Shown here piece after piece: positions 1,173-17,947 of a stretch of 17,947 nt of DNA (position 1 is its first letter; each line of letters opens with the position of its first letter). The stretch covers positions 1 through 17,947 of the forward strand of contig JAEWGQ010000148.1 in NCBI GenBank assembly GCA_023388235.1. The letters run 5' to 3'. This stretch comes from Actinomycetes bacterium. GTDB taxonomy: Bacteria > Actinomycetota > Actinomycetes > Actinomycetales > Cellulomonadaceae. The notes below the pieces were generated by a model that made no database searches, was not told the origin of the DNA, and saw nothing but the letters and a program-made list of their open reading frames with translations. The position numbers and the translations under genes are program-made.

Positions 1173-1198
1173 GCGCCGACCGGCCTCGCGAACGGGTG

Positions 1199-1247
1199 AA
1201 AACCGCAGGTCAGGCTTGCGGGGACCTCATCCGCCCTGATCCTGCGG
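1199..1247 (-). terminator. Intrinsic terminator after the dGTPase-like gene
   Basis: On the minus strand, CCGCAGG-A-TCAGG pairs with CCTGACCTGCGG, a 12-bp stem with one bulged A and a loop of about 20 bases. It is followed directly by TTTT (1202-1199). The stem begins 3 bases after the dGTPase-like stop codon and ends before the chemoreceptor promoter, so it separates the sugar operon from the chemotaxis gene. The T tract is short. Confidence 0.7.
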
Positions 1248-1249
1248 CG

Positions 1250-2521: not shown

Positions 2522-2531
2522 GCGCCCCAGC

Positions 2532-3350: not shown

Positions 3351-5233
3351 GCGAGCCGCCAGACCTGCACGCCGGGACCGTCGCCGGGCAGGTGCACCCC
3401 GTCCGGGCCGACGCGCAGGTCGGCGTCGCCGTAGAGGTTCTCCGCGCCGGACGCGAGGTGCGCGGGCAGCGTCGCGCCCTGCCACGGCGCCCGGGCGGCG
3501 AGGACCAGCACCCGCTCGTCGGCGGTCTCCCGCAGGTAGGCCACGGCGTCGTCCTCGACGACGGCCCAGCGCAGGCCGCCCTCGCGCAGCGCCCGGCTGG
3601 ACCGGCGCAGGGCGATGAGCCGGCGGTAGACGTCGAACGTCGCCGTGTCCCACGCGGGCCCGCGGCCGGGGTCGCGGCCCTCGATGGCGTCCCACGGCAT
3701 CGGCACGCGGGCGTTCTCGCCGTTCCAGCCGGTCAGCCCGCCCTCGTCGCCCGCGAACATCGCGGGGGTGCCCGGGTAGGTGAACAGCAGGCCGGCGGCG
3801 ACCTCGACGAGCTCGCGGCTGCCGACGACGGTCCGCAGCCGCGGGGTGTCGTGCGACCCGAGCATGTTCCACTGCGAGCGCGTCACCCGCCACGGCACCG
3901 TCGAGTCGAACTCGCGCATCGTCGCGACCGCCGACGGCCCCGTGCGCCGCGGGATCAGCGTGGGGATGCCGAGGAAGTCCAGCGTCGTCGCCGGGTCGAC
4001 CAGCCACGTCCACACGGGCTTGGTGAACGCGCCGTAGTTCATGTTCGCGTGCCAGCCGGCCCCGGTCAGGTCGCCGCCGGCGTCGTGGAAGTGCTCGCTG
4101 ACCAGGACGGCGTCGGGGTTGGCGGCGGCCATCGTGGCGCGGACCGCGCGGGCGACCTCGTGCGCGAAGTCGTCGCCGCCGAACCGGCCGGTCATGTTGG
4201 CGACGTCGATCCGCCAGCCGTCCAGGGCGTAGGGCTCGGCGAGCCACCGCGCGATGACCGAGTCGGGGCCGTCCACCAGGCGGCGCGCGAGCTCGCGCGA
4301 CCGGTACGACAGCTTGGGCAGGGACGGCACGTCCAGCCACGCGGCGTACCCGCGCTCGGAGGAGTCCCAGTAGTAGAACTCGCGCTCGGGCGCGGCGGGG
4401 TCGGCGGCGGCGCTGCGGAACCACTCGTGGGCGTCGCCGGTGTGGTTGGTGGTGAGGTCGCCGACCAGGCGCATCCCGCGGCCGTGCAGCGCGCGGCTGA
4501 GCGAGGCGAGCGCCTCGTCCCCGCCGAGCAGCGGGTCGACGTGCCCGAACGTGGAGGCGTCGTACCGGTGGTTCGACCGCGAGGGGAACACCGGCGTCAG
4601 GTACACGGTGTCCACGCCGAGGCGCTGCAGGTGGTCGAGCCGCTGCTCGATGCCGAGCAGGTCCCCCCCGTACAGCTGCACCGGGGTGACGGGGCCTCGC
4701 CCGACCGGCTCCTCGTCCCACGCCGCCGGCACCGCCCAGTCCGGCAGCGGGCGGTCCACCCCGGAGCGCGCGAACCGGTCCGGGAAGATCTGGTACACGA
4801 CGGCCTCGGACGCCCACGCGGGCGCGCCCGGGTGCACCGTCAGGCGGAAGTCGCCGGCGTCGGTCACGTCGCGGTCGAACGCGCCGCGCCCGGTCAGCCA
4901 CCGGTAGCCGCCCGGCTCGTCCAGCAGCCAGCGGTAGGACGTCACCGGGTTGTGCACGGGCACGTCGGCGACGTACCAGCGCTCGCCGGCGTCCTCGCGC
5001 TCGAGGCGGGCCGGCACGATGTGCGGCTCCGCGTCCCGCACCGTGCGGACCCACACGCCGCGCTCGGGGGTCCCGGCCGGCACGCGCAGCCGCACCGGCA
5101 CGACGTCGCCGAGCGCCGGGACCTCCTGCGGCGCGTAGAGCTCGCTGCCGTCGTGGTGCGGGACGTCCAGCAGGTGCCCCGCCGGGCGCCGGGCGCCCCG
5201 GGCCGCCGCGGGGACGGTGGTCGTGGTGGTCAT
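3347..5233 (-). CDS. GH13 alpha-glycosidase, neopullulanase/cyclomaltodextrinase-like
   Basis: Predicted cytoplasmic alpha-glucan hydrolase that would cut imported maltodextrins. The 628 residues comprise an N-terminal beta-rich domain (about 30-135, CBM34-like in position), a catalytic barrel starting at VVYQIFPDRF (145-154), and a C-terminal beta domain (about 545-628). GH13 conserved regions are visible: LTTNH (260-264), GWRIDVANM with nucleophile Asp343, LVSEHF with acid/base Glu380, and LGSHDTPR with the third carboxylate Asp462. NHRYDAS and YGGDLLGI resemble the neopullulanase/cyclomaltodextrinase group, but the subfamily is an inference. There is no signal peptide. The ATG lies 2 bases after the MalG-like stop (TGAGCATG), and the stop overlaps the next gene, so it is operonic with the importer. 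Alternatives are maltogenic amylase or another GH13 alpha-amylase. Confidence 0.92.
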   Translation of the reverse strand: MTTTTTVPAAARGARRPAGHLLDVPHHDGSELYAPQEVPALGDVVPVRLRVPAGTPERGVWVRTVRDAEPHIVPARLEREDAGERWYVADVPVHNPVTSYRWLLDEPGGYRWLTGRGAFDRDVTDAGDFRLTVHPGAPAWASEAVVYQIFPDRFARSGVDRPLPDWAVPAAWDEEPVGRGPVTPVQLYGGDLLGIEQRLDHLQRLGVDTVYLTPVFPSRSNHRYDASTFGHVDPLLGGDEALASLSRALHGRGMRLVGDLTTNHTGDAHEWFRSAAADPAAPEREFYYWDSSERGYAAWLDVPSLPKLSYRSRELARRLVDGPDSVIARWLAEPYALDGWRIDVANMTGRFGGDDFAHEVARAVRATMAAANPDAVLVSEHFHDAGGDLTGAGWHANMNYGAFTKPVWTWLVDPATTLDFLGIPTLIPRRTGPSAVATMREFDSTVPWRVTRSQWNMLGSHDTPRLRTVVGSRELVEVAAGLLFTYPGTPAMFAGDEGGLTGWNGENARVPMPWDAIEGRDPGRGPAWDTATFDVYRRLIALRRSSRALREGGLRWAVVEDDAVAYLRETADERVLVLAARAPWQGATLPAHLASGAENLYGDADLRVGPDGVHLPGDGPGVQVWRLA

Positions 5234-5235
5234 GC

Positions 5236-6165
5236 TCACCCCTTCACGGAGCCGGCGGTCAGGCCGGAGACGATGAAGCGCTGCAGGAACTGGAACAGCA
5301 GGATCACGGGCACGGCGGCCAGCACGGCGCCGGCCGCGAACACGCCCCAGTACTCCGAGAACCGCTGGTTGACGTACTGGTAGAGGCCGACGGCGAGCGT
5401 CTGCGTGTCCGGGTCGACCAGCACGATGGACGCGATGAGGAAGTCGGAGAACGTGCCGACGAACGACAGCAGGCCGACCACGGCGAGGATCGGCGCGACC
5501 AGGCGCAGGATGATCGTGAAGAACGTCTGGGAGTGGCTCGCGCCGTCCAGGGTCGCCGCCTCGTCGAGCTCGCGCGGGACCGTGTTGAAGAACCCGTACA
5601 TGAGGTACGTGTTCACGCCGAGCGCCCCGCCGAGGTACACGAGGATCAGGCCGAGCCGGCTGCCCAGGCCGATCGCCGGGAACAGGTCCCGCAGCGTCAC
5701 CATGAGCAGGAAGATCGCCACGTACGCGAGCAGCTGCGGGAACATCTGGATCAGCAGCAGGGACAGCAGCCCGCCGCGGCGCCCGCGGAACCGGAACCGC
5801 GAGAACGCGTACGCCGCGCACGCCCCGAGGAACACGGTGCCGACGGCCGTGACGCCCGCGATGACGAGCGTGTTCACGAACCACTTCGCGTACGGGTGCA
5901 CGGGGTCGGAGAACAGGTCCACGTAGTTCTGCGTGGACACCGTGCCGAACAGCCGGTTGGAGCCCGTCAGCGACCCCGTCGGGTTCAGCGACGAGGAGAC
6001 GATGTACAGGATCGGGAAGATCGCGAACACCAGCGCCACGGCGGCGACGACGTGCCGCCAGCCGATCTCCCGCCACCAGCGCCCGGGAGGCAGCCGGCGC
6101 GGGGCGTCCGCCGCGACGCGGCGGGTGGCGGTGGCGGGGGTGGTGGTGCGGTCGGTGGCGGCCAT
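5236..6165 (-). CDS. malG: Maltose/maltodextrin ABC transporter permease, MalG-like
   Basis: Inner-membrane subunit of a carbohydrate ABC importer, paired with the MalF-like protein. The 309 residues begin with a polar tail of about 35 residues, then the first membrane helix (about 38-58), with about six helices in all. The EAA loop that docks on the ATPase reads ELDEAATLDGASHSQTFF followed by LRLVAP (199-225), with the invariant Gly208. C-terminal SVKG is typical of MalG proteins. The ATG shares its A with the TGA of the upstream gene (TGATG), indicating translational coupling, and the next gene follows after 2 bases. The substrate is assigned from the flanking GH13 enzymes rather than from the permease itself. 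Confidence 0.93.
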   Translation of the reverse strand: MAATDRTTTPATATRRVAADAPRRLPPGRWWREIGWRHVVAAVALVFAIFPILYIVSSSLNPTGSLTGSNRLFGTVSTQNYVDLFSDPVHPYAKWFVNTLVIAGVTAVGTVFLGACAAYAFSRFRFRGRRGGLLSLLLIQMFPQLLAYVAIFLLMVTLRDLFPAIGLGSRLGLILVYLGGALGVNTYLMYGFFNTVPRELDEAATLDGASHSQTFFTIILRLVAPILAVVGLLSFVGTFSDFLIASIVLVDPDTQTLAVGLYQYVNQRFSEYWGVFAAGAVLAAVPVILLFQFLQRFIVSGLTAGSVKG

Positions 6166-7805
6166 CAGTTCAGCTCCTCGAGCGCGCGGGTCCGGCGGAA
6201 GCTGATCGCGGAGATCGTCGCGACGATCAGGAAGATGAGGATGGAGATCGCGCAGGCCAGGCCGTACTGCCGGTTCACGCCGCCGAACGCGATCTTGTAG
6301 ACGAAGGTGATGAGGATGTCGCTGGCCCCGACGTCCACCGGGGCGGACAGGTCCTGCGGCCCGCCCTCCGTGGTCAGGTACACCACGTTGAAGTTGTTGA
6401 AGTTGAAGGCGAACGACGAGATCAGCAGCGGCGCGGTGGACACGAGCAGCAGCGGCATGGTCAGCGAGCGGAACATGCGCCACGGCTTCGCCCCGTCCAG
6501 GCGGCCGGCCTCGTACACCTCGTGCGGGATGGACTGCAGCGCGCCGGTGCAGATGAGGAACATGTACGGGAAGCCGAGCCACAGGTTGACGGTCAGCACC
6601 GCCACCTTCGCCAGCACCGGGTCGGTCAGCCACGGGATCTCGGCGCCGCCGAGCAGCGTCTGGTTGACGAACCCGAAGTCCCGGTTGAGCATCCCGCGCC
6701 ACACCAGGGCGGACAGGAACGCCGGGAACGCGTACGGCAGGATCAGCAGCGACCGGTAGACGGTCCGGCCCCGCACCCGCCAGTCGTTCAGCGTGATCGC
6801 GAGGAACAGCCCCAGCCCGAAGGTCAGGACCACGGAGCCGATCGCGAACCCGAAGGTCCACAGCAGCACCCCGACGAACGGCCCGCGCAGCGAGGCGTCG
6901 CCCAGCACGCGGGCGAAGTTGTCGAACCCGACGAACACGCGCCAGCCGGTGCCGAGCTCGGTGCCGTCCTCGGCGACGAACGCCCCGACGGACTCGTCCG
7001 CCGTGTACACGGTCCCCGTGGTGGTGTCCGTGACGGTGCCGGCGGCCTCGTCGTAGACCTTCGACGACGCGTAGACGTAGCCGGTCGACCCGTCGGTCGT
7101 GCGCAGGCTGCCGTCGTTCGGGTCGTCCGAGATCGGCACGCGCATCCCGAAGACCTCGGTCTGCCGCGCGACCACCTGGGCGAAGTCGAGGACCTCGTAG
7201 CCCGGGACGGCGACGACGCGGCCGCCCTCGACGTCGGCGTCGGCGGCGGGCTCGAGCGGCTGCTCCGGGCCCCCGACGAGCGTGTCGCCGTCCGGGTCCA
7301 CGACGGCGAACGCCAGCTCGTCGCCCTGGGTGACGATGGACAGCGCGTACGTCGGCGAGTCCGGCACGCGCGTCTCGTCCTGCACCAGCAGCGCCTCGAC
7401 GGCGTCGGCCCGGGTGGAGTTGTGCCCGTCGCCGTAGTTGGTGAACGCGGTCCAGCCCGTGTAGGCGACCACGAAGACCTGGTAGACGAGCAGGAAGATC
7501 AGGCCGGGCACCAGGTACTTGGCCGGCACGGCGCGCCGGGAGAAGTACACCAGGTTGACGACGAGCAGCGCGGCGACGAGGAACGCCAGGACGCCCCACT
7601 GCTGCTGCGCCGCCGAGGCCAGGACGCCGTAGACGCCGAGCGCGTCGACGAGGCCGACGAGCACGAGCTTGACGACGAAGCCGGCCGAGAACGTCTGGGC
7701 GCCGATCCAGGTCCGCGGACCGCGCGGTCCGGTGCCGTCGTCGCCGGGCCCGCGGGCCGTCCGGGGACGGGGGGACGCCTCGCTGGGCGCCGTCGTGCGA
7801 CTCAT
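6165..7805 (-). CDS. malF: Maltose/maltodextrin ABC transporter permease, MalF-like
   Basis: Inner-membrane permease subunit of the alpha-glucan importer. The 546 residues are close to the length of enterobacterial MalF and much longer than ordinary sugar permeases. After a polar tail of about 35 residues there are three membrane helices (about 42-62, 70-88, 97-117). A long extracytoplasmic segment of about 180 residues (about 120-305) sits where the P2 domain of MalF contacts the binding protein, and is followed by further membrane helices. The EAA loop is EVYEAGRLDGAKPWRMF followed by RSLTMPLL (429-453). GGAEIPWL and FNFNNFNVVYLTTEGGP are typical of maltose permeases. The ATG at 7805 has a good GGAGAG ribosome site 5-6 bases upstream and lies 73 bases after the binding-protein stop, with a strong hairpin between them. 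Confidence 0.94.
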   Translation of the reverse strand: MSRTTAPSEASPRPRTARGPGDDGTGPRGPRTWIGAQTFSAGFVVKLVLVGLVDALGVYGVLASAAQQQWGVLAFLVAALLVVNLVYFSRRAVPAKYLVPGLIFLLVYQVFVVAYTGWTAFTNYGDGHNSTRADAVEALLVQDETRVPDSPTYALSIVTQGDELAFAVVDPDGDTLVGGPEQPLEPAADADVEGGRVVAVPGYEVLDFAQVVARQTEVFGMRVPISDDPNDGSLRTTDGSTGYVYASSKVYDEAAGTVTDTTTGTVYTADESVGAFVAEDGTELGTGWRVFVGFDNFARVLGDASLRGPFVGVLLWTFGFAIGSVVLTFGLGLFLAITLNDWRVRGRTVYRSLLILPYAFPAFLSALVWRGMLNRDFGFVNQTLLGGAEIPWLTDPVLAKVAVLTVNLWLGFPYMFLICTGALQSIPHEVYEAGRLDGAKPWRMFRSLTMPLLLVSTAPLLISSFAFNFNNFNVVYLTTEGGPQDLSAPVDVGASDILITFVYKIAFGGVNRQYGLACAISILIFLIVATISAISFRRTRALEELN

Positions 7806-7839
7806 GCTCTCTCCACGCTGAGGGGTCCGACGAGGGTGT

Positions 7840-7871
7840 GCCGGGCGGGCGGCCGCAGCCGCCCGCCCGGC
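7840..7871 (-). repeat. Perfect 14-bp hairpin between the binding-protein and MalF-like genes
   Basis: On the minus strand GCCGGGCGGGCGGC, then TGCG, then GCCGCCCGCCCGGC: a perfect 14-bp, almost pure G/C stem closed by a UGCG loop, a member of the very stable UNCG class. It starts 7 bases after the TGA of the binding-protein gene and ends 34 bases before the MalF-like ATG. No T tract follows, so it is more likely an mRNA 3'-end protector or a partial attenuator than a full terminator. In ABC operons such structures keep the binding-protein message in excess of the permease message; that role is inferred here. Confidence 0.8.
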
Positions 7872-7878
7872 GCGGCGG

Positions 7879-9126
7879 TCAGGCCGCGGCGATCTTCGCG
7901 GCGATGGACGCGCACATCTGCGTCCAGAGCTCGCCGGGGTCGCCCTGCTGGTTGATGATCGCGACCTGCGTGGCGCCCCAGTCGGACCAGACGGAGTCCA
8001 TGGCCGGGATCGACGGCATGGGCACGCCGTTCTTGCCCACCTCGGCGAAGCCCGCGACGACCGGGTCGTCGGCGATCTTGTCGACCGCGGCGCTCAGCGC
8101 CGGGGCACGGCCGCCGGCCTCGTACAGCTCGAGCTGCACGTCCTCGGTGCCCAGGTAGTTCACGACGAACTCGTTCGCGAGCAGCGCGTTCTCGCTCTTG
8201 GCCGAGATGAAGAAGCCCTGGACGCCCACGAACGGCTGGGACTCGCCGCCGCCGGCGGACGGGATGGGCTCGATGGAGACGTCCATGCCGGCGTCGACGA
8301 AGTCGCCGACGTTCCACGGGCCGCTGATCATGTACGGCGCCTTGCCCTGCAGGAACGCCTCCTTGGCGATGTCGCCGGAGATCGTCGTCTTCAGCACGCC
8401 CTCGGCGCCGAGCTTGCCGACGTACGCGGCGAACGCGCGGCCCTGCTCGGTGTCCATCGCGAGCTGCGAGCCGTCGTAGGCGCCGGTGTCGTCCGTCGCG
8501 AACACGGGGGCGCCGAACGAGGTCTGCAGCGGGTACAGGTGGTACGGGTCGCCCGTGGTCTCGTCCTGCTGGATCAGCACCGAGTTCTCGGTCCCGACGG
8601 CCTTGGCCTGCTCGACCAGGGCGTCGAAGGTGTCGGGCGTCGGCTCGGTCACCAGCGCGTTGTTGCGCACCAGGCCGATGTTCTCCACCGAGTAGGGCAG
8701 GCCGTACAGGGTGCCCTCGTAGGTCATGGCGTCGATGGACACGTCGAGGAAGTCGCCGGCCTTGTCGCCGAGCTCGATCGGCGCGACCACGCCGTTCTGC
8801 ACGAGCTTGCCGAGCCAGTCGTGCGCGCCGACGATGATGTCCGGGCCCTGGCCGGTCGGCACCTGCGAGATGAAGTCGTCGCGGATCTTGCCGAAGTCCT
8901 TCTGGACGAACTTCACGGTCACGCCGGTGTCGGCCTCGAAGGCCTCCGCGACCTTCTTGACCGGGCCGGACCGGGTGTCGTCCACCCAGACCGTCAGGGT
9001 GCCGGCCGACTCGGCCGCACCGGTGGACTCGTCGCCGCTCGCGGTGTCGTCGCCGCCGCCCGAGCAGCCGGCGAGCACCAGGGACAGCCCCAGTGCGGTC
9101 GCCAGCGCGGGGATGCTCCGTCGCAT
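7879..9126 (-). CDS. malE: Extracellular maltose/maltodextrin-binding lipoprotein, MalE-like
   Basis: Substrate-binding lipoprotein that captures the sugar outside the membrane and delivers it to the MalF/MalG pair. The 415 residues start with a lipoprotein signal peptide (MRR, hydrophobic core, lipobox LAGC with Cys21) and a Gly/Ser/Asp-rich tether to about residue 42. The type 2 periplasmic-binding fold follows, with TLTVWVDD, PTGQGPDIIVGAHDWLGKLVQNG, LYGLPYSVENIGLVRN and ISGPWNVGDF, all close to maltose-binding proteins of Gram-positive bacteria. The ATG at 9126 has GGAG 9 bases upstream. It is the first gene of the importer operon, about 60 bases behind its predicted promoter and divergent from the LacI-type regulator. 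Specificity for maltose or longer dextrins is inferred from similarity and neighbours. Confidence 0.94.
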   Translation of the reverse strand: MRRSIPALATALGLSLVLAGCSGGGDDTASGDESTGAAESAGTLTVWVDDTRSGPVKKVAEAFEADTGVTVKFVQKDFGKIRDDFISQVPTGQGPDIIVGAHDWLGKLVQNGVVAPIELGDKAGDFLDVSIDAMTYEGTLYGLPYSVENIGLVRNNALVTEPTPDTFDALVEQAKAVGTENSVLIQQDETTGDPYHLYPLQTSFGAPVFATDDTGAYDGSQLAMDTEQGRAFAAYVGKLGAEGVLKTTISGDIAKEAFLQGKAPYMISGPWNVGDFVDAGMDVSIEPIPSAGGGESQPFVGVQGFFISAKSENALLANEFVVNYLGTEDVQLELYEAGGRAPALSAAVDKIADDPVVAGFAEVGKNGVPMPSIPAMDSVWSDWGATQVAIINQQGDPGELWTQMCASIAAKIAAA

Positions 9127-9193
9127 CGTGGTCTCCGTATCGCAGGAAGGTTGCCGGGCGGCTCCTGCGCCGGCCTCGGCTTGACGGGTCGGG

Positions 9194-9223
9194 ACGCTAA
9201 CGGCCCGCAGCCCTTCTCCGCAA
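9194..9223 (-). promoter_or_regulatory. Predicted promoter of the importer operon
   Basis: On the minus strand a -35 box TTGCGG (9223-9218) and a -10 box TAGCGT (9199-9194) are separated by 18 bases. This puts the transcript start about 60 bases before the binding-protein ATG. The -35 box overlaps the operator-like GCAAG repeats, as expected for repression by the divergent LacI-family protein. Boxes were found by eye. Confidence 0.5.
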
Positions 9224-9237
9224 GGTGTTGCAGCAAG
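9220..9237. promoter_or_regulatory. Operator-like repeats for the LacI-family regulator
   Basis: The plus strand reads GCAAGGTGTTGCAGCAAG. GCAAG occurs twice (9220-9224 and 9233-9237), 13 bases apart, with the inverted half TTGC at 9228-9231, so TTGC-A-GCAA is a small palindrome. The segment overlaps the -35 boxes of both divergent promoters. CTTGC/GCAAG half-sites recall operators reported for actinobacterial MalR-type regulators, but the exact site is inferred. Confidence 0.5.
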
Positions 9238-9257
9238 TTTCAGAACGCGCATACAGT
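9228..9257 (+). promoter_or_regulatory. Predicted promoter of the LacI-family regulator gene
   Basis: TTGCAG (9228-9233) and TACAGT (9252-9257) are spaced by 18 bases and lie about 78 bases before the regulator start. The -35 box lies inside the operator-like repeats, so the regulator would repress its own gene together with the importer operon. Found by eye. Confidence 0.45.
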
Positions 9258-9334
9258 GTCGCCCGGCCGCTGCCGACGAGGACGCCGCCCGGGGCCCCGC
9301 CCTGCATCCGGAACGACGAGGACGAGGAGGCCCG

Positions 9335-10384
9335 GTGTCGCTTACGCTCGCCACCGTGCGCACCCGTCTGACGGACCTCGCCGACCAGGCGGGGGTCTCC
9401 ACCGCGACGGTCTCGCGCGTCCTCAACGGCAAGCCCGGCGTGTCCACCCAGGCCCGCGAGGCGGTGCTCGCCGCCCTCGACGTCCTCGGCTACGAGCGCC
9501 CCGAGAAGCTCCGCACCCGGTCCACCGGCCTCGTCGGCCTGGTGGTGCCCGAGCTGTCCAACCCGGTGTTCCCGGCGATGGCGCAGGCCGTCGAGTCGAT
9601 GCTCACCCGCCGCGGGTACACGCCGCTGCTGTGCACCCAGTCCCCCGGCGGCACGACCGAGGACCACTACGTCGAGATCCTGCTGGAGCACGACGTCGCG
9701 GGCATCGTCTTCGTGTCCGGCCTGCACGCCGACACCACGGCCTCCACCGAGCGCTACCAGGCGCTGCGGGGGCGCGGGGTGCCGATCGTGCTGGTCAACG
9801 GCCGCGCGGACGACGTCGACGCCCCCGCGGTGGCGTCCGACGACGCGGTGGCCGTCGACCAGGCGCTCACGCACCTGCTGGCGCTCGGGCACCGCAGGAT
9901 CGGCCTGGCCACCGGACCCACCCGGTTCGTGCCCGCCCGCCGCAAGCACGCCCGGTTCGCGGAGCTGCTGCGCACCCGGCTGGGCGTCGAGGACCCGTCC
10001 GAGCACGTCGTGGCGACCCTGTTCACCGTCGAGGGCGGCGTCCAGGCGGCGCACGAGCTCATCGACTCCGGCCACACCGCGATCATCTGCGGCTCCGACC
10101 TCATGGCCCTCGGCGCGATCCGCGCCGCGCGGTCCCGGGGGCTCGACGTGCCGGGCGACGTGTCCGTCGTCGGCTTCGACGACTCGCCGCTCATCGGGTT
10201 CACCGACCCGCCGCTGACGACCGTGCGCCAGCCCGTCCAGGCCATGGCGCAGGCCGCCGTCCAGGCGCTCATGAGCGAGATCGCCGGGACGCCGGCCTCC
10301 CGCACCGAGCTGCTGTTCCACCCCGAGCTGATCGTGCGGGGCTCCACCGGCGCCGCGCCGGGCCGCCCCGACGCGACCGCCTGA
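9335..10384 (+). CDS. LacI-family transcriptional regulator (MalR-like)
   Basis: DNA-binding repressor expected to control the divergent maltodextrin importer operon in response to an alpha-glucoside. Of 349 residues, about 9-65 form the LacI head: RLTDLADQAGVSTATVSRVL is the helix-turn-helix and NGKPGVSTQAREAVLAALDVLGY the rest with the hinge helix. The sugar-binding core follows, opening with TGLVGLVVPELSNPVFPAMAQAVE and carrying the usual ICGSDLMALGAIRAA and DVSVVGFDDSPLIGFTDPPLTTVRQPVQ segments. The start is GTG at 9335, chosen because GAGGAGG lies 4 bases upstream; the next in-frame GTG at 9356 would leave that site too far away. The alpha-glucosidase gene follows 85 bases later, probably in the same transcript. 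The inducer is not determined by sequence. Confidence 0.92.
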   Translation: MSLTLATVRTRLTDLADQAGVSTATVSRVLNGKPGVSTQAREAVLAALDVLGYERPEKLRTRSTGLVGLVVPELSNPVFPAMAQAVESMLTRRGYTPLLCTQSPGGTTEDHYVEILLEHDVAGIVFVSGLHADTTASTERYQALRGRGVPIVLVNGRADDVDAPAVASDDAVAVDQALTHLLALGHRRIGLATGPTRFVPARRKHARFAELLRTRLGVEDPSEHVVATLFTVEGGVQAAHELIDSGHTAIICGSDLMALGAIRAARSRGLDVPGDVSVVGFDDSPLIGFTDPPLTTVRQPVQAMAQAAVQALMSEIAGTPASRTELLFHPELIVRGSTGAAPGRPDATA

Positions 10385-10469
10385 CCGACCGAACCCGGCG
10401 CTCCCGCGCCGCGCGCACCGTCCCCGCCGACCCCGGCCGGGGCTCCCCCTGCGACCCCGAAGGCACGCC

Positions 10470-12227
10470 GTGACCGCACTCGCCCCCACCCCGCTGACGA
10501 CCGCCGCCCCCGCCGTGGTGCACGAGCCCGGGCCCGCCGACGGCCCGTGGTGGCGCGACGCCGTGATCTACCAGGTCTACCCGCGCTCGTTCGCCGACGC
10601 GGACGGCGACGGCGTCGGCGACCTGCCCGGCGTCACCGCCCGGCTCGACCACCTGGCCGCCCTCGGCGTGGACGCGGTGTGGCTGTCGCCGTTCTACCGC
10701 TCCCCGCAGGCGGACGCGGGCTACGACGTCGCCGACTACCGCGACGTCGACCCGCTGTTCGGCACCCTCGCGGACTTCGACGCCCTGCTGGCCAAGGCGC
10801 ACGGGCTCGGCCTGCGGGTCGTCGTCGACCTCGTGCCGAACCACTCGTCCGACGAGCACGCGTGGTTCGCCGAGGCGCTGCGCACGCCGCCCGGCTCCCC
10901 CGAGCGCGCGCGGTACCTGTTCCGCGACGGCCGCGGCGCGGACGGCTCGCTGCCGCCGAACAACTGGGAGTCGATCTTCGGCGGCCCGGCGTGGACCCGG
11001 CTCACGCCCGAGCAGCACGGCGTGGACGACGGCCAGTGGTACCTGCACCTGTTCGACTCCAAGCAGCCCGACCTCGACTGGACCAACCCCGAGGTCCGCG
11101 CCGAGTTCGAGGACGTCCTGCGGTTCTGGCTGGACCGGGGCGTCGACGGGTTCCGGGTGGACGTCGCGCACGGCATGGTCAAGGCCGAGGGGCTGCCCGA
11201 CTGGGACGGGCACGTCGCCATGATCGACGGCGCCGAGGGCGACGCGGCGGCCGACGGCGAGCCGATCGGCTCCGGCAACCAGGGCCCGATGTTCGACCAG
11301 GACGGCGTGCACGAGATCTACCGCGCCTGGCGCGCGGTGCTCGACGAGTACGACGGCGACCGGATGCTCGTGGCGGAGGCCTGGGTCGAGCCGCTGTCCC
11401 GCCTCGCCCGGTACGTGCGCCCGGACGAGATGCACCAGGCGTTCAACTTCGCCTTCCTCGCCACCGGCTGGGACGCCCCGAACCTGCGCAAGGTCATCGC
11501 CGCGTCCTACGCCGTGAACGACTCGGTCGGCGCGCCCACCACGTGGGTGCTGTCGAACCACGACGTCGTGCGGCACCCGTCGCGCCTCGGGCTGCCCGTG
11601 CCCGGCGCGCGCCCGAACGGCATCGGCCACGGCGACGACCAGCCGGACGAGGTGCTCGGCCTGCGCCGCGGCCGCGCCGCCACGCTCCTGATGCTGGGCC
11701 TGCCCGGCTCGGCGTACCTGTACCAGGGCGAGGAGCTCGGGCTGCCCGAGCACACCGCGCTCGACGACGAGCTGCGCCAGGACCCGGCGTTCTTCCGCAC
11801 GGGCGGGGCGGAGCGCGGCCGCGACGGCTGCCGCGTGCCGCTGCCGTGGGCCGCGCAGGAGCCGGGCTTCGGCTACTCCCCGACCGGCGCGACCTGGCTG
11901 CCCCAGCCCGCCGGGTGGGCCGCCTACGCGGCCGACGCCCAGGACGGCGTGCCCGGGTCCACGCTCGAGCTCTACCGGGCGGCGCTGCGCCTGCGCCGCG
12001 ACGAGCTGCTCGGCGGCGGCGGCGCGGCCTGGGAGCCGGCCTACGCGGACGAGGCCGACGTGATCGCCGTCCGGAACCGGGACGTGCTCGTGGTGGCGAA
12101 CCTCGGGTCCACCCCGGTCGCGCTGCCGGCGGGCGCCGAGGTGCTGCTGGCGTCCGGCCTGCCGGGCGACCCCGCCGTCGTCACCGAGCTGCCCGGCGAC
12201 ACCACCGCCTGGCTGCGGGTGCGCTGA
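10470..12227 (+). CDS. GH13 alpha-glucosidase (oligo-1,6-glucosidase/maltase type)
   Basis: Predicted cytoplasmic exo-acting alpha-glucosidase that would release glucose from imported malto- or isomalto-oligosaccharides. The 585 residues hold the GH13 barrel starting at PWWRDAVIYQVYPRSF (26-41), with DGVGDLPGV (47-55), LVPNHSSDEH (121-130), GFRVDVAHG with nucleophile Asp231, LVAEAW with acid/base Glu303 and SNHDVVRH with Asp365. A short C-terminal beta domain ends the protein. Length and motifs fit the actinobacterial alpha-glucosidase group (probably GH13 subfamily 30). Trehalose synthase is less likely because the enzyme lacks that family's typical extended context. The start is GTG at 10470 with GAAGG about 8 bases upstream. 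It follows the regulator by 85 bases and no promoter was seen in that gap. Confidence 0.92.
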   Translation: MTALAPTPLTTAAPAVVHEPGPADGPWWRDAVIYQVYPRSFADADGDGVGDLPGVTARLDHLAALGVDAVWLSPFYRSPQADAGYDVADYRDVDPLFGTLADFDALLAKAHGLGLRVVVDLVPNHSSDEHAWFAEALRTPPGSPERARYLFRDGRGADGSLPPNNWESIFGGPAWTRLTPEQHGVDDGQWYLHLFDSKQPDLDWTNPEVRAEFEDVLRFWLDRGVDGFRVDVAHGMVKAEGLPDWDGHVAMIDGAEGDAAADGEPIGSGNQGPMFDQDGVHEIYRAWRAVLDEYDGDRMLVAEAWVEPLSRLARYVRPDEMHQAFNFAFLATGWDAPNLRKVIAASYAVNDSVGAPTTWVLSNHDVVRHPSRLGLPVPGARPNGIGHGDDQPDEVLGLRRGRAATLLMLGLPGSAYLYQGEELGLPEHTALDDELRQDPAFFRTGGAERGRDGCRVPLPWAAQEPGFGYSPTGATWLPQPAGWAAYAADAQDGVPGSTLELYRAALRLRRDELLGGGGAAWEPAYADEADVIAVRNRDVLVVANLGSTPVALPAGAEVLLASGLPGDPAVVTELPGDTTAWLRVR

Positions 12228-12233
12228 GCCGCC

Positions 12234-12251
12234 CGCCGGGCCGGCCCGGCG
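12234..12251. repeat. 18-bp perfect palindrome between convergent genes
   Basis: CGCCGGGCCGGCCCGGCG is its own reverse complement. It fills most of the 24-bp gap between the alpha-glucosidase stop and the dusB stop. As RNA it could form a 7-bp G/C stem with a 4-base loop in either direction, so it may act as a bidirectional terminator, but there is no T tract on either side. Confidence 0.5.
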
Positions 12252-13445
12252 TCAGCCGCCGGAGACGCTCAGCTCCGCCTCGTGCAGCGAGCGCCGGAAC
12301 TCCTCGGACAGCTCGCGGGACTCCAGCCAGCCGTCCGGCAGGTGCGGGCGCTTCGGGGTGCCGGCGCGCCCGCGCTGCCCCTCGGCGGCCTCGCCCGGGT
12401 ACGGCTGGTCGAGGTCGAGCGCCGCCACCCGGTCGTCCAGCTCGGCCAGGCTCGACACCAGGCCGAGCGCCGCGCGCTGCTCCCCGCCGACCACGTAGCC
12501 CTTCCAGTACCAGGCCATGTGCTTGCGCAGCTCGCGCAGCGCCTTCCCCTCGTCGCCGAAGTGCTCGATCATCAGCTCGGCGTGCCGGCGGATGACCTGC
12601 GCGACCTCGCGCGCGCCCGGCCGGATCCGCTCGGGCGACCCGGCGAAGGCCGCCGCGAGGTCCGCGAACAGCCACGGCCGCCCCTGGCACCCGCGCCCCA
12701 CCACGACGCCGTCGCAGCCGGTCTCGCGGACCATGCGCACCGCGTCCTCGGCGGACCAGATGTCGCCGTTGCCGAGCACCGGGATGTCCGTCACCGTCTG
12801 CTTGAGCCGGGCGATCGCCTCCCAGTCCGCGGTGCCGGAGTAGTACTGCTCCGCCGTCCGGGCGTGCAGCGCGACCGCCGCGACGCCGAGGTCCTGCGCC
12901 ACGAGACCGGCCTCGAGGTACGTCAGGTGGTCGTCGTCGATGCCCTTGCGCATCTTCACGGTCACCGGCACGCCGTACGGCCGGGCCGCCTCGACCGCCG
13001 CCCGCAGGATCGACTCGAACAGCTCGCGCTTCCACGGCAGGGCCGACCCGCCGCCGCGCCGGGTGACCTTGGGCACCGGGCAGCCGAAGTTCAGGTCGAC
13101 GTGGTCCGCGCGGTCCTCCGACGCGATCAGGTGCACCGCCGCGCCGACGGTCGCCGGGTCGACCCCGTACACCTGCACCGACCGCGGCTTCTCGTCCGGG
13201 GCGTGCGAGATGATCCGCATCGACTCCTCGCCGCGCTCCACCAGCGCCCGCGACGTCACCATCTCCGCGACGTACAGGCCCGCGCCGGACTCGCGGCACA
13301 GCCGCCGGAACGCCGCGTTCGTCACGCCGGCCATCGGCGCGAGCACGACGGGCGTGTCGATCGACAGCGGCCCGATGCGCAGCGGGGGCAGCACGTGCCC
13401 CGCCGGTGCAGGGGCCGCCGGGGCGGGGGCGGGCACAGCGGTCAT
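12252..13445 (-). CDS. dusB: tRNA-dihydrouridine synthase, DusB family
   Basis: FMN- and NADPH-dependent enzyme that reduces specific uridines in the D-loop of tRNAs. The 397 residues show the family in order: LAPMAGVTNAAFRRLC (35-50), the substrate and catalytic segment VDLNFGCPVPKVTRRGGGSAL with catalytic Cys122, VTVKMRKGIDDDHLTYLEAG, ALHARTAEQYYSG, PVLGNGDIWSAEDA and the FMN phosphate site CDGVVVGRGCQGRPWLF. A helical C-terminal RNA-binding part follows. The chosen start is ATG at 13445; an in-frame GTG at 13463 is possible but has no better ribosome site. A -10-like GACAAT ends 6 bases before the ATG, which suggests a leaderless transcript. It is divergent from the YibE/F gene and convergent with the alpha-glucosidase gene. 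Confidence 0.94.
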   Translation of the reverse strand: MTAVPAPAPAAPAPAGHVLPPLRIGPLSIDTPVVLAPMAGVTNAAFRRLCRESGAGLYVAEMVTSRALVERGEESMRIISHAPDEKPRSVQVYGVDPATVGAAVHLIASEDRADHVDLNFGCPVPKVTRRGGGSALPWKRELFESILRAAVEAARPYGVPVTVKMRKGIDDDHLTYLEAGLVAQDLGVAAVALHARTAEQYYSGTADWEAIARLKQTVTDIPVLGNGDIWSAEDAVRMVRETGCDGVVVGRGCQGRPWLFADLAAAFAGSPERIRPGAREVAQVIRRHAELMIEHFGDEGKALRELRKHMAWYWKGYVVGGEQRAALGLVSSLAELDDRVAALDLDQPYPGEAAEGQRGRAGTPKRPHLPDGWLESRELSEEFRRSLHEAELSVSGG

Positions 13446-13451
13446 CCCCCG

Positions 13452-13510
13452 ATTGTCCCCCACGCCGCGGGCGACGGCCGCGGCCGTCGTCCCCGCGGGC
13501 CGGGCAGAAT
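13452..13510. promoter_or_regulatory. Symmetric divergent promoter region of dusB and the YibE/F gene
   Basis: Two -10-like boxes face outward: GACAAT on the minus strand (13457-13452) and CAGAAT on the plus strand (13505-13510). Each ends exactly 6 bases before its start codon, so transcription would begin at or next to the first base of ATG (dusB) or GTG (YibE/F). Between them CCGCGGG-CGACGG (13465-13477) is inverted as CCGTCG-TC-CCCGCGG (13484-13498). The dyad centre near 13481 coincides with the midpoint of the two start codons. No clear -35 boxes or plus-strand Shine-Dalgarno sequence were seen. Confidence 0.5.
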
Positions 13511-13516
13511 CGCCGT

Positions 13517-14764
13517 GTGACCGCTCCCGCCGCCCTGCGCACGCGCCGGGTCATCGCCGCCGTCCTGGTCCCGCTGGTCCTGCTCGCCGCCCTCGGCACC
13601 GCCCTGACCTGGCCGCACGGGGCACCCGCGACCGCCCGCACCGTCGAGGCCGTCGCGCTCGACTACCCGACCGCCACCGTGACCGGGACGTCGGCCGAGC
13701 GCTGCGCCGGCACCGTCGAGGACCGCGCGCCCGACGGCACCGTCCCGGCGCGCGTGCCGTGCCTGCGCGTGTCCGCGACCGTCACGAGCGGGGCCGAGCG
13801 CGGCCGCGACGTCGAGGTGTGGGCCGGCGCGGGGACGACGGCGGCGGACGTGCCGCCCGGCACGCGCATCGTCGTCGAGCACTACCCGGCCACCGACGCG
13901 GACCCGGAGGTCTGGGCCTTCCACGACTACGACCGCTCCGTGCCGCTGGTCGCGCTGGCGCTGGCGTTCGCGCTGGCCATCGTGCTGGTCGCCCGGGCCC
14001 GGGGGCTCCGGGCGCTGCTGGGTCTGGTGATCGCGTTCGCCGTCATCGGGGGCTACCTGCTGCCCGCCCTGCTGGCGGGCGAGGACGCCGTGGTCGTGGC
14101 GCTGTGCGCGTCCACGCTCATCATGACGGCCGTGCTGTACCTGGCCCACGGGCTGTCGCTGCGCACGTCGACCGCCCTGCTCGGCACCCTCGCGGGCCTG
14201 GCGCTGACCACGGGGCTCGGCGTGCTGGCCGCCGGGTGGGCGCGGCTGTCCGGCGTGAGCTCCGAGGACTCCTACCGGCTCGCGCAGCTGCTCGGCGACG
14301 CGGGCGCGACCTCCCTGCGCGGGCTGTTCCTGTGCGGGCTGGTGCTGGCCGGGCTGGGCGTGCTCAACGACGTGACGATCACGCAGGCGTCCGCCGTGTG
14401 GGAGCTGCGGGCGGCGTCGCCCGGGGCGTCGCGCCGGGAGCTGTTCGCCGGCGCCATGCGGATCGGCCGGGACCACATCGCGTCCACCGTGTACACGATC
14501 GCCTTCGCGTACACCGGCGCGGCGCTGCCGGTCCTGCTGCTGCTCGAGCTCTACCGGCTGCCGCTCGGACCCACGCTCACCAGCGGCGAGTTCGCCGAGG
14601 AGATCGTGCGCACCATGGTCGGCTCGATCGGCCTCGTCCTCGCGATCCCGCTCACGACCGCGATCGCAGCGCTGGTCGTCACCCGCGCTCGCGCGGCGTC
14701 GGCCCGGCACGCCGCCCCGGGCCCCCACGCCCATGCGGTCTTGGAGTCGAGTTCCGAAATCTGA
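13517..14764 (+). CDS. YibE/F family membrane protein
   Basis: Polytopic membrane protein of the YibE/F family, whose function is unknown. The 415 residues show an N-terminal membrane helix (about 12-31) and a soluble extracytoplasmic segment (about 32-140) containing two Cys (63 and 82). At least seven further hydrophobic helices run from 142 to 390. The family-typical stretches LNDVTITQASAVWELR, MRIGRDHIASTVYTIAFAY and GEFAEEIVRTMVGSIGLVLAIPLTTAIAA are present. The start is GTG at 13517, because the GTG two bases earlier runs directly into a stop; a leaderless transcript is likely. The last 8 or so residues (VLESSSEI) come from DNA of visibly different composition, so the natural C-terminus may have been altered where the low-GC gene begins. 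It converges with the HEPN-NTPase gene, 42 bases between stops. Confidence 0.87.
   Translation: MTAPAALRTRRVIAAVLVPLVLLAALGTALTWPHGAPATARTVEAVALDYPTATVTGTSAERCAGTVEDRAPDGTVPARVPCLRVSATVTSGAERGRDVEVWAGAGTTAADVPPGTRIVVEHYPATDADPEVWAFHDYDRSVPLVALALAFALAIVLVARARGLRALLGLVIAFAVIGGYLLPALLAGEDAVVVALCASTLIMTAVLYLAHGLSLRTSTALLGTLAGLALTTGLGVLAAGWARLSGVSSEDSYRLAQLLGDAGATSLRGLFLCGLVLAGLGVLNDVTITQASAVWELRAASPGASRRELFAGAMRIGRDHIASTVYTIAFAYTGAALPVLLLLELYRLPLGPTLTSGEFAEEIVRTMVGSIGLVLAIPLTTAIAALVVTRARAASARHAAPGPHAHAVLESSSEI
14429..14497 (+). repeat. Left arm of inverted repeat within the YibE/F genes
   Basis: This 69-base piece of the left YibE/F gene recurs on the opposite strand at 17865-17933 in the right YibE/F gene, with about 67 identities counted by eye. 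The 42 bases 14456-14497 are identical. It encodes the SRRELFAG-x-MRIGRDHIASTVYT segment in both proteins. Outside this block the two genes match mainly at protein level. The arms are about 3.4 kb apart and face inward around the low-GC gene. Confidence 0.85.
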
Positions 14765-14806
14765 TATCGCTCGAAGCACACCGACGACCGTGCCGGTTGC
14801 CGAAAC

Positions 14807-17485
14807 CTACGGAGCAGATGTCACCGCACGCACGTGGCGATTCCGGGATACAAGCAGGCGAACGCTGTTGGCTCGCGGCCTGCCGTCACCCTCGTAGGAA
14901 ACGCTGAACTCGACGGCAAGCCCCGCGGCCAAATGACTCGCCGACTCATCCTCAACCGATCCGCGATGAAAGAAGACATTGTCAGGGTAGTCTGAGTGCT
15001 TTATGAATCCAAAGCGACCGCGCCAACTCAAGACCTCCCCGACCAACGTCGCCATTCCCTCCGCACCGGCTTGAACCGGCCCGATGATGAACCTTCCCAG
15101 TTCGGAGTTCTCGACATCACAACTCTCATCGCGCAATGCAACTGAGAGGTGCTTCGCGAACGAACCGATGCCCCCCGCCTTCACGAGGCCCATATTGGCG
15201 CGCATCCAAACCAGTACCGCGTTGAGTCTCTCGTTGTCCACCATAGAGCCCTGGACAGTCATGGCGCGGACAATTGCCGTCGCAGCCTCAAGAACCTCGC
15301 TCGCTAGCCGTGTGTCAACGTATCCACTCGCGAGTGCGGCGACTCCGGATTCGAACCCCAAGAACGCCTTGTCTATGGCATCCACTGGCTGATGCTCGTC
15401 GAGAACCGCTTCTGACCAACGCCGCCAACTTTCAACGTAAGCCGTCATAGCGATCATGTACGTCTTGCCCTGAGCAACCTCAGACGCCTGCAAGATAAGG
15501 GCCTGACCCTCTTCGAACTGCCTGACCCAGACGAGAAAGTTACCGAGCTGCAGGGCGGTCTCTTCGCTTTGAAGTACTTCGTGAGCGAACCGGGCGTGCT
15601 CGATCGCCGACTCCACATCGTGCATCCGGCGAGCCAGATTTCCTGCGAGGTAGTAGGACGTAATCGCTCGCTCTTCGTCGGTTTGAACGTTCTCAAGCGC
15701 CGAACGGTAGAACACTGATGCTTCCACCGCGCGACCGTGCGAAGAAGCAATGAACCCAGCGACTCGGTCGATCTCCCAGTACTCTGGATTTAGCGACCGC
15801 GCCCTCGCTACGAGTTCGTCGCTCTTCTCCAGATCGCCACGCCTACTATGCGATAGCGCCAATCGAAGCAGGTGAACGACCGGCTCGTCTTCAGGGGCCC
15901 TCGCGCGGACAATATTGGGCCCAAGGCGCCGCGAGGCTTCTTCAACGCGACTCTTTTCTACCGACTTTCGATAGTCCTGTTCAGCCGTCATGACGCGGGC
16001 CACAGCGGACTCGCGATCTGGCCGCTTTTTGAGGAACATCTGAGCGGCAACGCTGAGTCCGAGGCGCGAGTAGAGCCCGCCGTCGACGTCGGGCTCGTGA
16101 ACGAGCATCGCTCCACGACTGAGTTCCTGGGAAGCTGCGCGCAACTCGTCGATCGATAGATCGCAGAAAATGGCCAATTCATCGAACGCGATGCTTCGGC
16201 TCAACGCGTCCATCACAAACAGCACGCTACGAGCGCGCGGCGATAGCGCATCGAACACGTTTGAAATGCAGTAGTTGATGAGCTCGTCTTGATTTCGCAC
16301 GGTAGTCAACGGATCGCGCCCCGCTGCCACGGAGAGGACGTACCACTTGATGGCGAGTGGACTGTTTCGCAGGCGCTCCGATACTTGCCGCGTCGCCAAG
16401 CTTGAAAGTCGCGTCAACTGAAGGAGATTTCGCGTCGAGGCCAGCTTCTTCAAAAGCAACGTCGAATCACCAATTGCAAGAGGGCCGAGCGGGACCCTGC
16501 GCTCGATTTGCCCGATCCCGACCCTGCTCGTAAAGAGGTACGTGACGGAATCAGGAAGCGTGTCGTAAAGCCTCAGGACTTCGTCTCCTTGGGCGGATTC
16601 GAGGTTGTCGATGATCACGAGCGCAGTGATTCCACTCAACATATCAGCAAGCTCGTGGACCGATCCGGCGAAGTCTTTATCAAGAACGGCGCCGATCTCA
16701 TTCGTGGCTCCCGATATCCCCTTGACGGCATCGGCAATCGAGCGCACACCGTTTGCGGTGAGCATTTCGCTCTTTAGGGATACCCAGAGGATGCAGTCGA
16801 AAACACTTTCACGATCGTCAACTATTGAGTATGCGACCTCAAGGGCGAGGGCGGTCTTGCCGATTCCTCCTTCGCCGGTGATCGTCACGATAGGCTCGCG
16901 CCGCTTCTGCAACATCGTTTTCAGGCGCGCGACGTCGACTGAGCGGCCAATCAATCCGGTCTCGTCGTAATCGGCGAGAGGCAAATTGTGAAGGACGCGT
17001 TCGCTCGGGGCTGGAACCGCTTCAAAATACGGTTCCCATTCCGGGTCGGACTCGAGGCGCGCGAGAATCTCGTGTGAGTTCTTCCAGTGCCTTGTAGTGA
17101 ACGCACGCACCCCCGAAGCGACCGATTCAGGGTCTCCATCGCGAAGCGGACGCCCGTGCATCACTCTGTTGCGGATCGGCACTATGGCGTCAAGGCGCCC
17201 CGTGTTCGCTTTGATCTCACTCGCCAGTTCACCTGGAAGAAGTTCCCGGTGTCGGGCGAGCGCATCGAATGCTTGACGGAGGAACAAGTAGTGAACGATC
17301 GAGACAGATCCGTCGCCGACGTCGTTTATTCGCAGGATGTTGGCGCGTTCGAAGTCAGACCCGAAGGCCTGCTCTTCGCTTAAATGATCCGTGATATACT
17401 TCTCTATTGCCTCGCGCATATCCTGCTCGAAAGCATCGAGCAACACATACATCCGGGCACGGCTCATTCTAAGCGCGCTGGGCAT
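14807..17485 (-). CDS. HEPN-STAND (NB-ARC) NTPase with TPR-like repeats and C-terminal cold-shock domain
   Basis: An 892-residue multidomain protein, likely a single-gene conflict or anti-phage factor; this role is inferred from architecture. Residues about 10-150 look like a HEPN domain, with R105-NRVM-H110 as the R-x4-H RNase motif. Residues 175-410 are a STAND/NB-ARC NTPase: Walker A GEGGIGKT (204-211), Walker B LVIIDN (289-294), sensor FTSR (318-321) and the GLPL-like SPLAIK (375-380). A winged-helix-like region follows at about 410-500 and TPR-like helical repeats at about 535-680. Residues 813-880 form a cold-shock domain with RNP1-like GRFGFI (823-828) and RNP2-like VFFH (837-840). Nucleic-acid-binding aromatics Trp821, Phe825, Phe827 and Phe838 and His840 are kept. 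The start is ATG at 17485 with AGGAAG upstream; Met7 and Met12 are alternatives. GC is far lower than in the neighbours, a mark of transfer. There are no membrane segments. Confidence 0.88.
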   Translation of the reverse strand: MPSALRMSRARMYVLLDAFEQDMREAIEKYITDHLSEEQAFGSDFERANILRINDVGDGSVSIVHYLFLRQAFDALARHRELLPGELASEIKANTGRLDAIVPIRNRVMHGRPLRDGDPESVASGVRAFTTRHWKNSHEILARLESDPEWEPYFEAVPAPSERVLHNLPLADYDETGLIGRSVDVARLKTMLQKRREPIVTITGEGGIGKTALALEVAYSIVDDRESVFDCILWVSLKSEMLTANGVRSIADAVKGISGATNEIGAVLDKDFAGSVHELADMLSGITALVIIDNLESAQGDEVLRLYDTLPDSVTYLFTSRVGIGQIERRVPLGPLAIGDSTLLLKKLASTRNLLQLTRLSSLATRQVSERLRNSPLAIKWYVLSVAAGRDPLTTVRNQDELINYCISNVFDALSPRARSVLFVMDALSRSIAFDELAIFCDLSIDELRAASQELSRGAMLVHEPDVDGGLYSRLGLSVAAQMFLKKRPDRESAVARVMTAEQDYRKSVEKSRVEEASRRLGPNIVRARAPEDEPVVHLLRLALSHSRRGDLEKSDELVARARSLNPEYWEIDRVAGFIASSHGRAVEASVFYRSALENVQTDEERAITSYYLAGNLARRMHDVESAIEHARFAHEVLQSEETALQLGNFLVWVRQFEEGQALILQASEVAQGKTYMIAMTAYVESWRRWSEAVLDEHQPVDAIDKAFLGFESGVAALASGYVDTRLASEVLEAATAIVRAMTVQGSMVDNERLNAVLVWMRANMGLVKAGGIGSFAKHLSVALRDESCDVENSELGRFIIGPVQAGAEGMATLVGEVLSWRGRFGFIKHSDYPDNVFFHRGSVEDESASHLAAGLAVEFSVSYEGDGRPRANSVRLLVSRNRHVRAVTSAP

Positions 17486-17515
17486 CGATTCCCGCTTCCT
17501 GATCCAGTTAGCCGA

Positions 17516-17547
17516 AGGTACCGAGGGGCGGTCGCGCGCGGGTACCT
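17516..17547. repeat. Short inverted repeat in the leader of the HEPN-NTPase gene
   Basis: AGGTACC (17516-17522) and GGTACCT (17541-17547) are inverted copies separated by 18 G/C-rich bases, lying 31-62 bases upstream of the HEPN-NTPase ATG. They could be a regulator site or an RNA hairpin in the leader. Two copies of a 6-base palindrome can also arise by chance. Confidence 0.35.
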
Positions 17548-17578
17548 CCGTATGGATGATTCTGGCTCACGGGCTCAC

Positions 17579-17591
17579 CGTCACCGTGACG
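17579..17591. repeat. Perfect odd palindrome CGTCACCGTGACG upstream of the HEPN-NTPase gene
   Basis: CGTCAC-C-GTGACG is symmetric around one central base and lies about 94 bases upstream of the HEPN-NTPase ATG. Its length and form suit a dimeric repressor, but no regulator gene lies nearby and the site is short. Confidence 0.35.
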
Positions 17592-17633
17592 TCGTCCGGA
17601 GAAGGAGGTGATGCGCGGTCCGTCCCGAGCGGC

Positions 17634-17947
17634 TCAACCGGCCTCGCTGTTCAAAGCAAGCGAATGACCGACCGGAGCCGGGGCCAGGACCGCGGCGATC
17701 GCCGTCGTCAGCGGAATAGCCAGCACCAGGCCAATGGACCCGACCAGCGTCCGCACGATCTCCTCCGCAATCTCCCCGGACGTCAGCGCGTCGAGCAGTG
17801 TCCTGTCGGACATCCCCACGAGGAGCACCAGCGGCAGCGCGGCGCCGAGGTACGCGAACGCGACCGTGTACACGGTGGACGCGATGTGGTCCCGGCCGAT
17901 CCGCATCCCGCCGGCGAACAGCTCCCGGCGCGAGGCGCCCGGCGACA
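17634..17947 (-). CDS. YibE/F family membrane protein, C-terminal part (5' end outside window)
   Basis: The C-terminal 104 or so residues of a second YibE/F family membrane protein; the frame is open at the right edge. It carries SRRELFAGGMRIGRDHIAS, then TVYTVAFAYLGAALPLVLLVG and GEIAEEIVRTLVGSIGLVL followed by AIPLTTAIAA, closely matching residues 301-385 of the YibE/F protein at 13517-14764. It differs in the loop before GEIAEE (MSDRTLLDALTS) and in the tail (APAPVGHSLALNSEAG). Two hydrophobic helices are visible. It converges on the other YibE/F gene across the HEPN-NTPase gene. Part of it is nearly identical to the left gene at DNA level, which points to duplication or gene conversion. 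Function unknown, as for the family. Confidence 0.85.
   Translation of the reverse strand, partial: SPGASRRELFAGGMRIGRDHIASTVYTVAFAYLGAALPLVLLVGMSDRTLLDALTSGEIAEEIVRTLVGSIGLVLAIPLTTAIAAVLAPAPVGHSLALNSEAG
17865..17933 (-). repeat. Right arm of inverted repeat within the YibE/F genes
   Basis: Reverse-strand partner of 14429-14497, with two mismatches counted by eye next to the MRIGRDH codons. Identity is uninterrupted over 17865-17906. Homologous recombination between the arms would invert the HEPN-NTPase gene together with the gap sequences. Confidence 0.85.

Follow-up and report, generated by a model that had tools for sequence, protein, structure and literature searches.

What does a gene do that, in one frame, appears to join a HEPN ribonuclease (RNase), a STAND NTPase, TPR repeats and a cold-shock domain? 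The question is raised by a 17,947-nucleotide stretch of an Actinomycetes bacterium (GenBank assembly GCA_023388235.1, contig JAEWGQ010000148.1, positions 1 to 17,947; the whole stretch is called the window here), whose gene at 14807..17485 on the reverse strand was put forward in a preliminary description as a candidate undescribed defence system. We read its product as a one-protein NLR-like conflict system with a HEPN RNase switch, probably anti-phage, and give this reading a probability of about 0.62. The observations behind it are the domain anatomy, the conservation of motifs, the predicted fold, a patchy single-copy distribution, the position of a low-G+C gene at a site that is empty in relatives, and the presence of defence genes beside some relatives. 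The parts of the gene are as follows.

14807..17485, reverse strand: whole gene, 892 amino acids, an uninterrupted frame with its ATG at 17485 and a possible alternative ATG at residue 7
17036..17464, reverse strand: residues 8-150, Swt1/AbiF-type HEPN domain, predicted RNase effector
17156..17173, reverse strand: predicted catalytic R-x4-H motif (R105-N-R-V-M-H110), with R and H conserved
16274..16975, reverse strand: residues 171-404, STAND (NB-ARC/AP-ATPase-like) NTPase, from the Pfam NB-ARC match and structural matches
16853..16876, reverse strand: Walker A motif GEGGIGKT, residues 204-211, seven of eight positions invariant in 108 aligned rows
16598..16621, reverse strand: Walker B motif LVIIDNLE, residues 289-296, with L289, D293, N294 and E296 in 108/108 rows
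16016..16273, reverse strand: residues 405-490, putative helical and winged-helix part of the switch (AlphaFold2 helices, short strands at 461-464 and 474-477)
15326..16015, reverse strand: residues 491-720, long helix and TPR superhelix, candidate sensor or assembly part (AlphaFold2 helices, TPR structural matches, TPR_12 below threshold)
15056..15325, reverse strand: residues 721-810, further AlphaFold2 helices of lower conservation, with conserved columns sparse past 727
14855..15046, reverse strand: residues 814-877, cold-shock (OB-fold) domain, from Pfam CSD and aromatic residues

A Pfam scan of the window protein returned CSD (residues 824-876, E = 3.4e-9, 36.9 bits against a cut-off of 27), NB-ARC (residues 185-380, E = 4.8e-8) and AAA_16 (E = 9.7e-8), with TPR_12 and nSTAND3 below the cut-off and no HEPN model matched. 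The motifs FTSR (318-321) and SPLAIK (375-380) were also located. The full-length AlphaFold2 model (mean predicted local distance difference test score 90.2, predicted template modelling score 0.66) has an all-helical region at residues 1-150, an NTPase with a winged helix, TPR-like helices from about residue 530, and five strands at 814-877 that are consistent with a cold-shock OB fold. The helices and short strands of this model suggest the winged helix at residues 405-490. The order given in the preliminary description, an N-terminal helical region with R-x4-H followed by an NB-ARC-type NTPase, TPR repeats and a cold-shock domain in one frame, is borne out by the open reading frame (ORF), by motifs at the residues it named, and by Pfam and AlphaFold2.

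Homologues were collected by scoring only the 7998 candidates that shared the most words, which yielded 207 proteins including the window's own; the best 120 are considered here. Most of these (104 of 120, window included) are 840-1000 amino acids long and alignable along their length, and they form the 104 rows of a length-selected alignment. Identities of the listed full-length homologues are 40-58%, and the organism names among those listed are all actinobacterial. A chance ORF is ruled out by homologues that align over the full length.

The N-terminus is predicted, from its modelled fold and from sequence profiles of its relatives, to be a divergent Swt1/AbiF-type HEPN domain. The R-x4-H motif sits at the end of a helix (residues 95-110) in the model, and R105, R107, M109, H110, R112, P113 and L114 are each present in 104/104 rows of the length-selected alignment. 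R105 and H110 are also present in all 32 domains of an alignment spanning six phyla, which reaches Pseudomonadota, Planctomycetota, Verrucomicrobiota, Chloroflexota and Melainabacteria, and whose non-actinobacterial members are just 17-26% identical to the window protein. The profile HEPN_Swt1 (PF18731) matches 23 of these 32 domains at E<=0.1 (best 8.9e-5), the window protein itself being unmatched, and Abi_2 matches two. Because full-length fold lists probe the HEPN part poorly, the N-terminus was folded separately; its best structural matches were AbiF (top), HepT, Csm6 and Swt1, at 5-14% sequence identity in the alignments. The HEPN-type N-terminus of the preliminary description is thus upheld by a fold like that of AbiF and the others, together with the invariant motif.

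Across the 120 listed proteins (window included) the pattern R.[RK][VIL][MCA]H is present in 117. Three proteins (P0010, P0025 and P0105) begin at the methionine of the motif and are probably mis-called at their starts; R105 is merely nearly invariant in the 108-row alignment because P0010 begins at M109. We fetched 79 loci and analysed L001-L033, leaving out L034-L079, whose matches are confined to the NTPase part; no intact ORF was obtained for L021 or L024, so that 31 locus genes were available. A loss of the HEPN part in L011, L013-L018 and L029 was considered and rejected: the motif is RNRVMH in L016 and RHRVMH or RRRVMH in the others, so that R-x4-H is intact in each.

The central part has the features of a STAND switch: Walker A, Walker B, a sensor motif, a helical and winged part and superhelical repeats. 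In the 108-row alignment (window included), Walker A except I208, D293, N294, E296, T319-S320-R321 and S375-P376-L377-A378 are invariant. The full model matches the bacterial STAND-TPR protein 6mfv domain by domain (E = 3.8e-10, with a template modelling score of just 0.22 over the query), and structure comparison also matched the NTPase and TPR parts to CED-4, plant NLRs and plant resistosomes, with the TPR matches falling between about 530 and 810. Canonical NB-ARC proteins carry an MHD-type histidine; a conserved histidine was not found in residues 464-486, where the place of the MHD motif was judged by eye and the commonest histidine, H483, occurs in 22/108 rows. Pfam, AlphaFold2, the structural matches and the invariant motifs agree with the earlier claim of a STAND NTPase switch, TPR repeats and a cold-shock C-terminus in a single gene.

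STAND-type regulators also exist, and homologues P0102 and P0103 are labelled 'LuxR family glucitol operon transcriptional activator' in their source. The protein might accordingly be a transcriptional regulator of the MalT/AfsR/'LuxR family' type, with N-terminal helices that are regulatory rather than nuclease, and Pfam describes the cold-shock domain as DNA-binding. Such a role is improbable: the Pfam scan of the window protein contains no helix-turn-helix family, the winged helix is situated within the NTPase module, as it is in NLRs, there is no conserved neighbour to regulate, and the invariant R-x4-H would be left unexplained.

The C-terminal domain contains motifs that we take to be RNP1-like (F/Y-G-F-I) and RNP2-like (V-F-F-H). 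In the length-selected alignment F827 is conserved in 104/104 rows and F838 in 103/104, and H840 is found in 57/104 with P in 47. A cold-shock pattern matched 109/120 proteins and 22/31 locus genes, and its misses include L027, L028 and L031, in whose tails the motif can be recognised by eye. One clade (L011, L012 and L018) is without the cold-shock domain and keeps the HEPN, NTPase and TPR parts, which offers a natural comparison for the role of the domain. The conserved aromatic surface residues of the domain, and a cold-shock-like tail in 5/7 non-actinobacterial locus genes (L027, L028, L030, L031 and L033), would suit an RNA-triggered stress RNase, in which an accumulation of host RNA that is misfolded or single-stranded is sensed by the cold-shock domain, the HEPN part responds by trimming RNA or by arresting growth reversibly, and phages are incidental. 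We regard this as unlikely. A housekeeping stress gene is not expected to be missing from nearly all sampled related genomes, and a clade that lacks the proposed RNA sensor and has the rest also speaks against it.

Under the preferred reading of an NLR-like conflict system, we infer autoinhibition, oligomerisation, RNase activity, a trigger and a phage target. At rest, the STAND NTPase would keep the protein closed. The TPR and helical C-terminal half would bind a trigger, the cold-shock domain making contact with RNA or DNA in single-stranded form, and binding would permit nucleotide exchange and oligomerisation. The N-terminal HEPN domains would thereby be paired, their R-x4-H motifs building a composite active site that would cut RNA, and growth of the infected cell would stop. 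If so, a HEPN RNase and NLR-type sensing are joined in one compact gene, mainly in Actinomycetota. A more specific and doubtful version is that the ligand of the cold-shock domain is single-stranded RNA of the phage or induced by it, upon whose recognition the STAND part oligomerises and the HEPN domain cleaves, making a guide-free, one-protein receptor that both senses and cuts RNA. Clades without the cold-shock domain would then use protein sensing by the TPR part. If the proposed mechanism holds, the family would also make it possible to ask whether bacterial NLRs can sense nucleic acids through an OB fold.

The preliminary description called the system undescribed, which does not hold for its domain plan. 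Passages of Anantharaman et al. 2013 (PMC3710099) already set out from sequence Swt1-like HEPN domains fused to a STAND ATPase, TPR and S1 (Npun_F6454, MED222_16016 and Desac_1927), mention HEPN-STAND proteins with cold-shock-like C-termini, and describe R-x4-6H as mostly active. The window protein resembles these, by description, in its Swt1-type N-terminal HEPN domain, STAND part, TPR and C-terminal RNA-binding OB fold; unlike the proteins of their table, it belongs to a branch found mainly in actinobacteria and has an OB fold that scores as a cold-shock domain and not as S1. For each protein the table names the fused parts without their order, and these passages report no experiment on the proteins. 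We therefore consider the window protein an uncharacterised example of an architecture predicted in 2013. Within the open-access literature (subscription literature was mostly outside the scope) no paper was recognised as experimentally testing the HEPN-STAND-TPR-cold-shock architecture, and the window protein was unmatched in PADLOC-DB 2.0.0 (best E = 0.013), with no Avs match.

Several known systems share parts of this plan. The TIR-STAND-TPR protein of a P4-like satellite hotspot, presented among anti-phage systems in part of Rousset et al. 2022 (PMC9122126) with SIR2 or a nuclease replacing TIR in relatives, likewise combines an N-terminal effector, a central STAND NTPase and a C-terminal TPR in one protein; in the window protein the effector is HEPN, the cold-shock domain is extra, and no phage-satellite location was seen. 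Avs5 (PMC12931631) and bNACHT proteins (PMC12169576) are described, in the portions consulted, as having a STAND switch that senses phage and triggers a response, and Avs5 as having an N-terminal effector and C-terminal repeats, which is also the plan of the window protein. Unlike Avs and bNACHT proteins, the window protein has an NB-ARC-type core, its nSTAND3 match being sub-threshold and PADLOC Avs models giving none. AbiF/Abi_2, Csm6, HepT and Swt1 are alike in the N-terminal fold, with Swt1 and Abi_2 profiles matching relatives, and differ in that the matched structures are, by title, not STAND-TPR fusions. The CoCoNuT systems (excerpts of PMC11090510), predicted RNA-targeting type IV restriction systems, similarly place cold-shock OB folds and HEPN RNases around an NTPase, and differ in that they are built on McrBC GTPases and encoded by operons of several genes.

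Members of the family come mostly from actinobacteria, and their distribution is patchy. One copy was found in 19/19 carrier genomes searched. Other members of a carrier's group were searched at E<=1e-100, with scoring limited to the 7 or 4 best candidates of each genome, and the resulting absence figures are approximate because so few candidates were scored: in the family of the Flavimobilis carrier 1/121 genomes was positive, namely the carrier itself (0/120 others), and in the genus of one Streptomyces carrier 2/199 were positive, the carrier and one partial relative (1/198 others). A 42-row tree has a supported clade that unites the window protein with proteins from Geodermatophilus, Microtetraspora and metagenomes and leaves Flavimobilis outside; this exclusion is the sole informative point of the tree, because the closest proteins by score were picked for it. 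The G+C content of the window gene is 57-59%, against 69-80% in 1-kb windows over positions 1-14000, and the gene is below its flanks in 30/30 loci (mean -12 points, more than 5 points in 28; L028 of the 31 was left out as its flank was too small), as the preliminary description had noted for the window. The gene lies between two convergent YibE/F genes.

13406..14764, forward strand: left-flank YibE/F gene (PF07907, E = 1.6e-72)
17634..17945, reverse strand: right-flank second YibE/F gene, convergent, running off the window (PF07907, E = 8.4e-29)
14737..17672, no strand: insertion, the stretch that relatives are without, between the convergent YibE/F genes (flank alignments)

The left YibE/F gene has its best relatives, at 80 and 83% identity, in the family-level genome set of the Flavimobilis carrier, where 13 genomes hold an adjacent convergent YibE/F pair, by eye count all with less than 190 bp between matches. 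When the window flanks were aligned to 12 relatives, the alignment ends lay 113-228 bp apart in eight, compared with 2,937 bp in the window, and in the other four one YibE/F gene alone was matched within the roughly 4.2 kb compared. The gene appears to have been acquired singly in this lineage, and a housekeeping gene with conserved synteny is rejected by the patchy genomes and the empty sites. Transposon ends were considered and rejected, since the borders share no match longer than an inverted one of 8 bases, and no recombinase was seen between the flanking genes of the window. Of the mobile, self-contained cassette proposed earlier, the single-gene acquisition stands; its mobility rests on the contrast between occupied and empty sites. 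The gap that separates the start of the STAND gene from the second YibE/F gene contains a 7-base inverted repeat, AGGTACC/GGTACCT (17516-17547), perhaps a terminator or operator.

No match was found among 50,697 phage records, and none of 51 pattern-matching stretches in viral contigs was confirmed; a phage origin was rejected on these grounds. Plasmid searches matched 29 records, three of which cover at least 80% of the query, all from Rhizobium. These distant relatives, together with the single-gene insertion and the patchy spread, would fit a selfish module in place of anti-phage defence, either toxin-like or used in competition between elements (addiction or exclusion by a plasmid or integrative element). 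The chance of this is slim, as there is no conserved partner as a possible antitoxin, no recombinase at the window site, and no record title among L001-L033 that names a plasmid.

The neighbourhoods bear on both function and partners. Among 460 neighbour ORFs of relatives, called by a simple script and some of them probably spurious, no cluster covered more than four loci and positions were scattered; a conserved partner gene was rejected, in keeping with the absence of an operon claimed earlier. In 6/14 loci a defence-type protein occurred among the three nearest ORFs per side (PADLOC E<=1e-10), judged from 20 neighbours whose selection favoured large ORFs that were likely behind the PADLOC matches and had no random-locus control. 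Convincing matches were found in L016 (a type IIG enzyme with a DrmD-like helicase), L014 (a C5 methylase with an SNF2-type helicase) and L025 (type I R and S); the other three loci are L023 (partial PDC-M37B), L009 (partial Dsr1) and L002 (PDC-S07). In L016 (2307-12667, a Propionibacteriaceae metagenome-assembled genome) the type IIG enzyme and the helicase are directly upstream of the HEPN-STAND gene, the ORFs nearly abutting.

A near set of 135 proteins (of 172 neighbours, restricted to Actinomycetota loci and omitting one over-long ORF) matched 190 PADLOC families, compared with 44 for a far set of 135 (of 185, hand-picked, mainly dropping non-actinobacterial loci and some edge ORFs); this contrast is a hint and not a statistic, because PADLOC families overlap and many match one protein. 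The far-set matches include the SspA, DndA and PD-T4-6 models, among the families listed (25 for either set). Pfam matches of the near set include two integrases, two resolvases and one DDE endonuclease among the 25 listed of 67 families. The proposed defence role is compatible with the anatomy, the patchiness and the defence neighbours of some relatives; the phage function is what we infer, and the window itself is not a defence island. Its surroundings are a sugar ABC/GH13/DusB region of sugar-uptake and housekeeping character. At positions 3347-12227 a sugar-uptake cluster encodes two enzymes of the GH13 alpha-amylase family along with a solute-binding protein, a LacI regulator and two permeases. 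Adjoining these sugar-metabolism genes, at 2532-3356 on the reverse strand, is a gene for an aminoglycoside 3-N-acetyltransferase family protein (PF02522, E = 1.5e-79).
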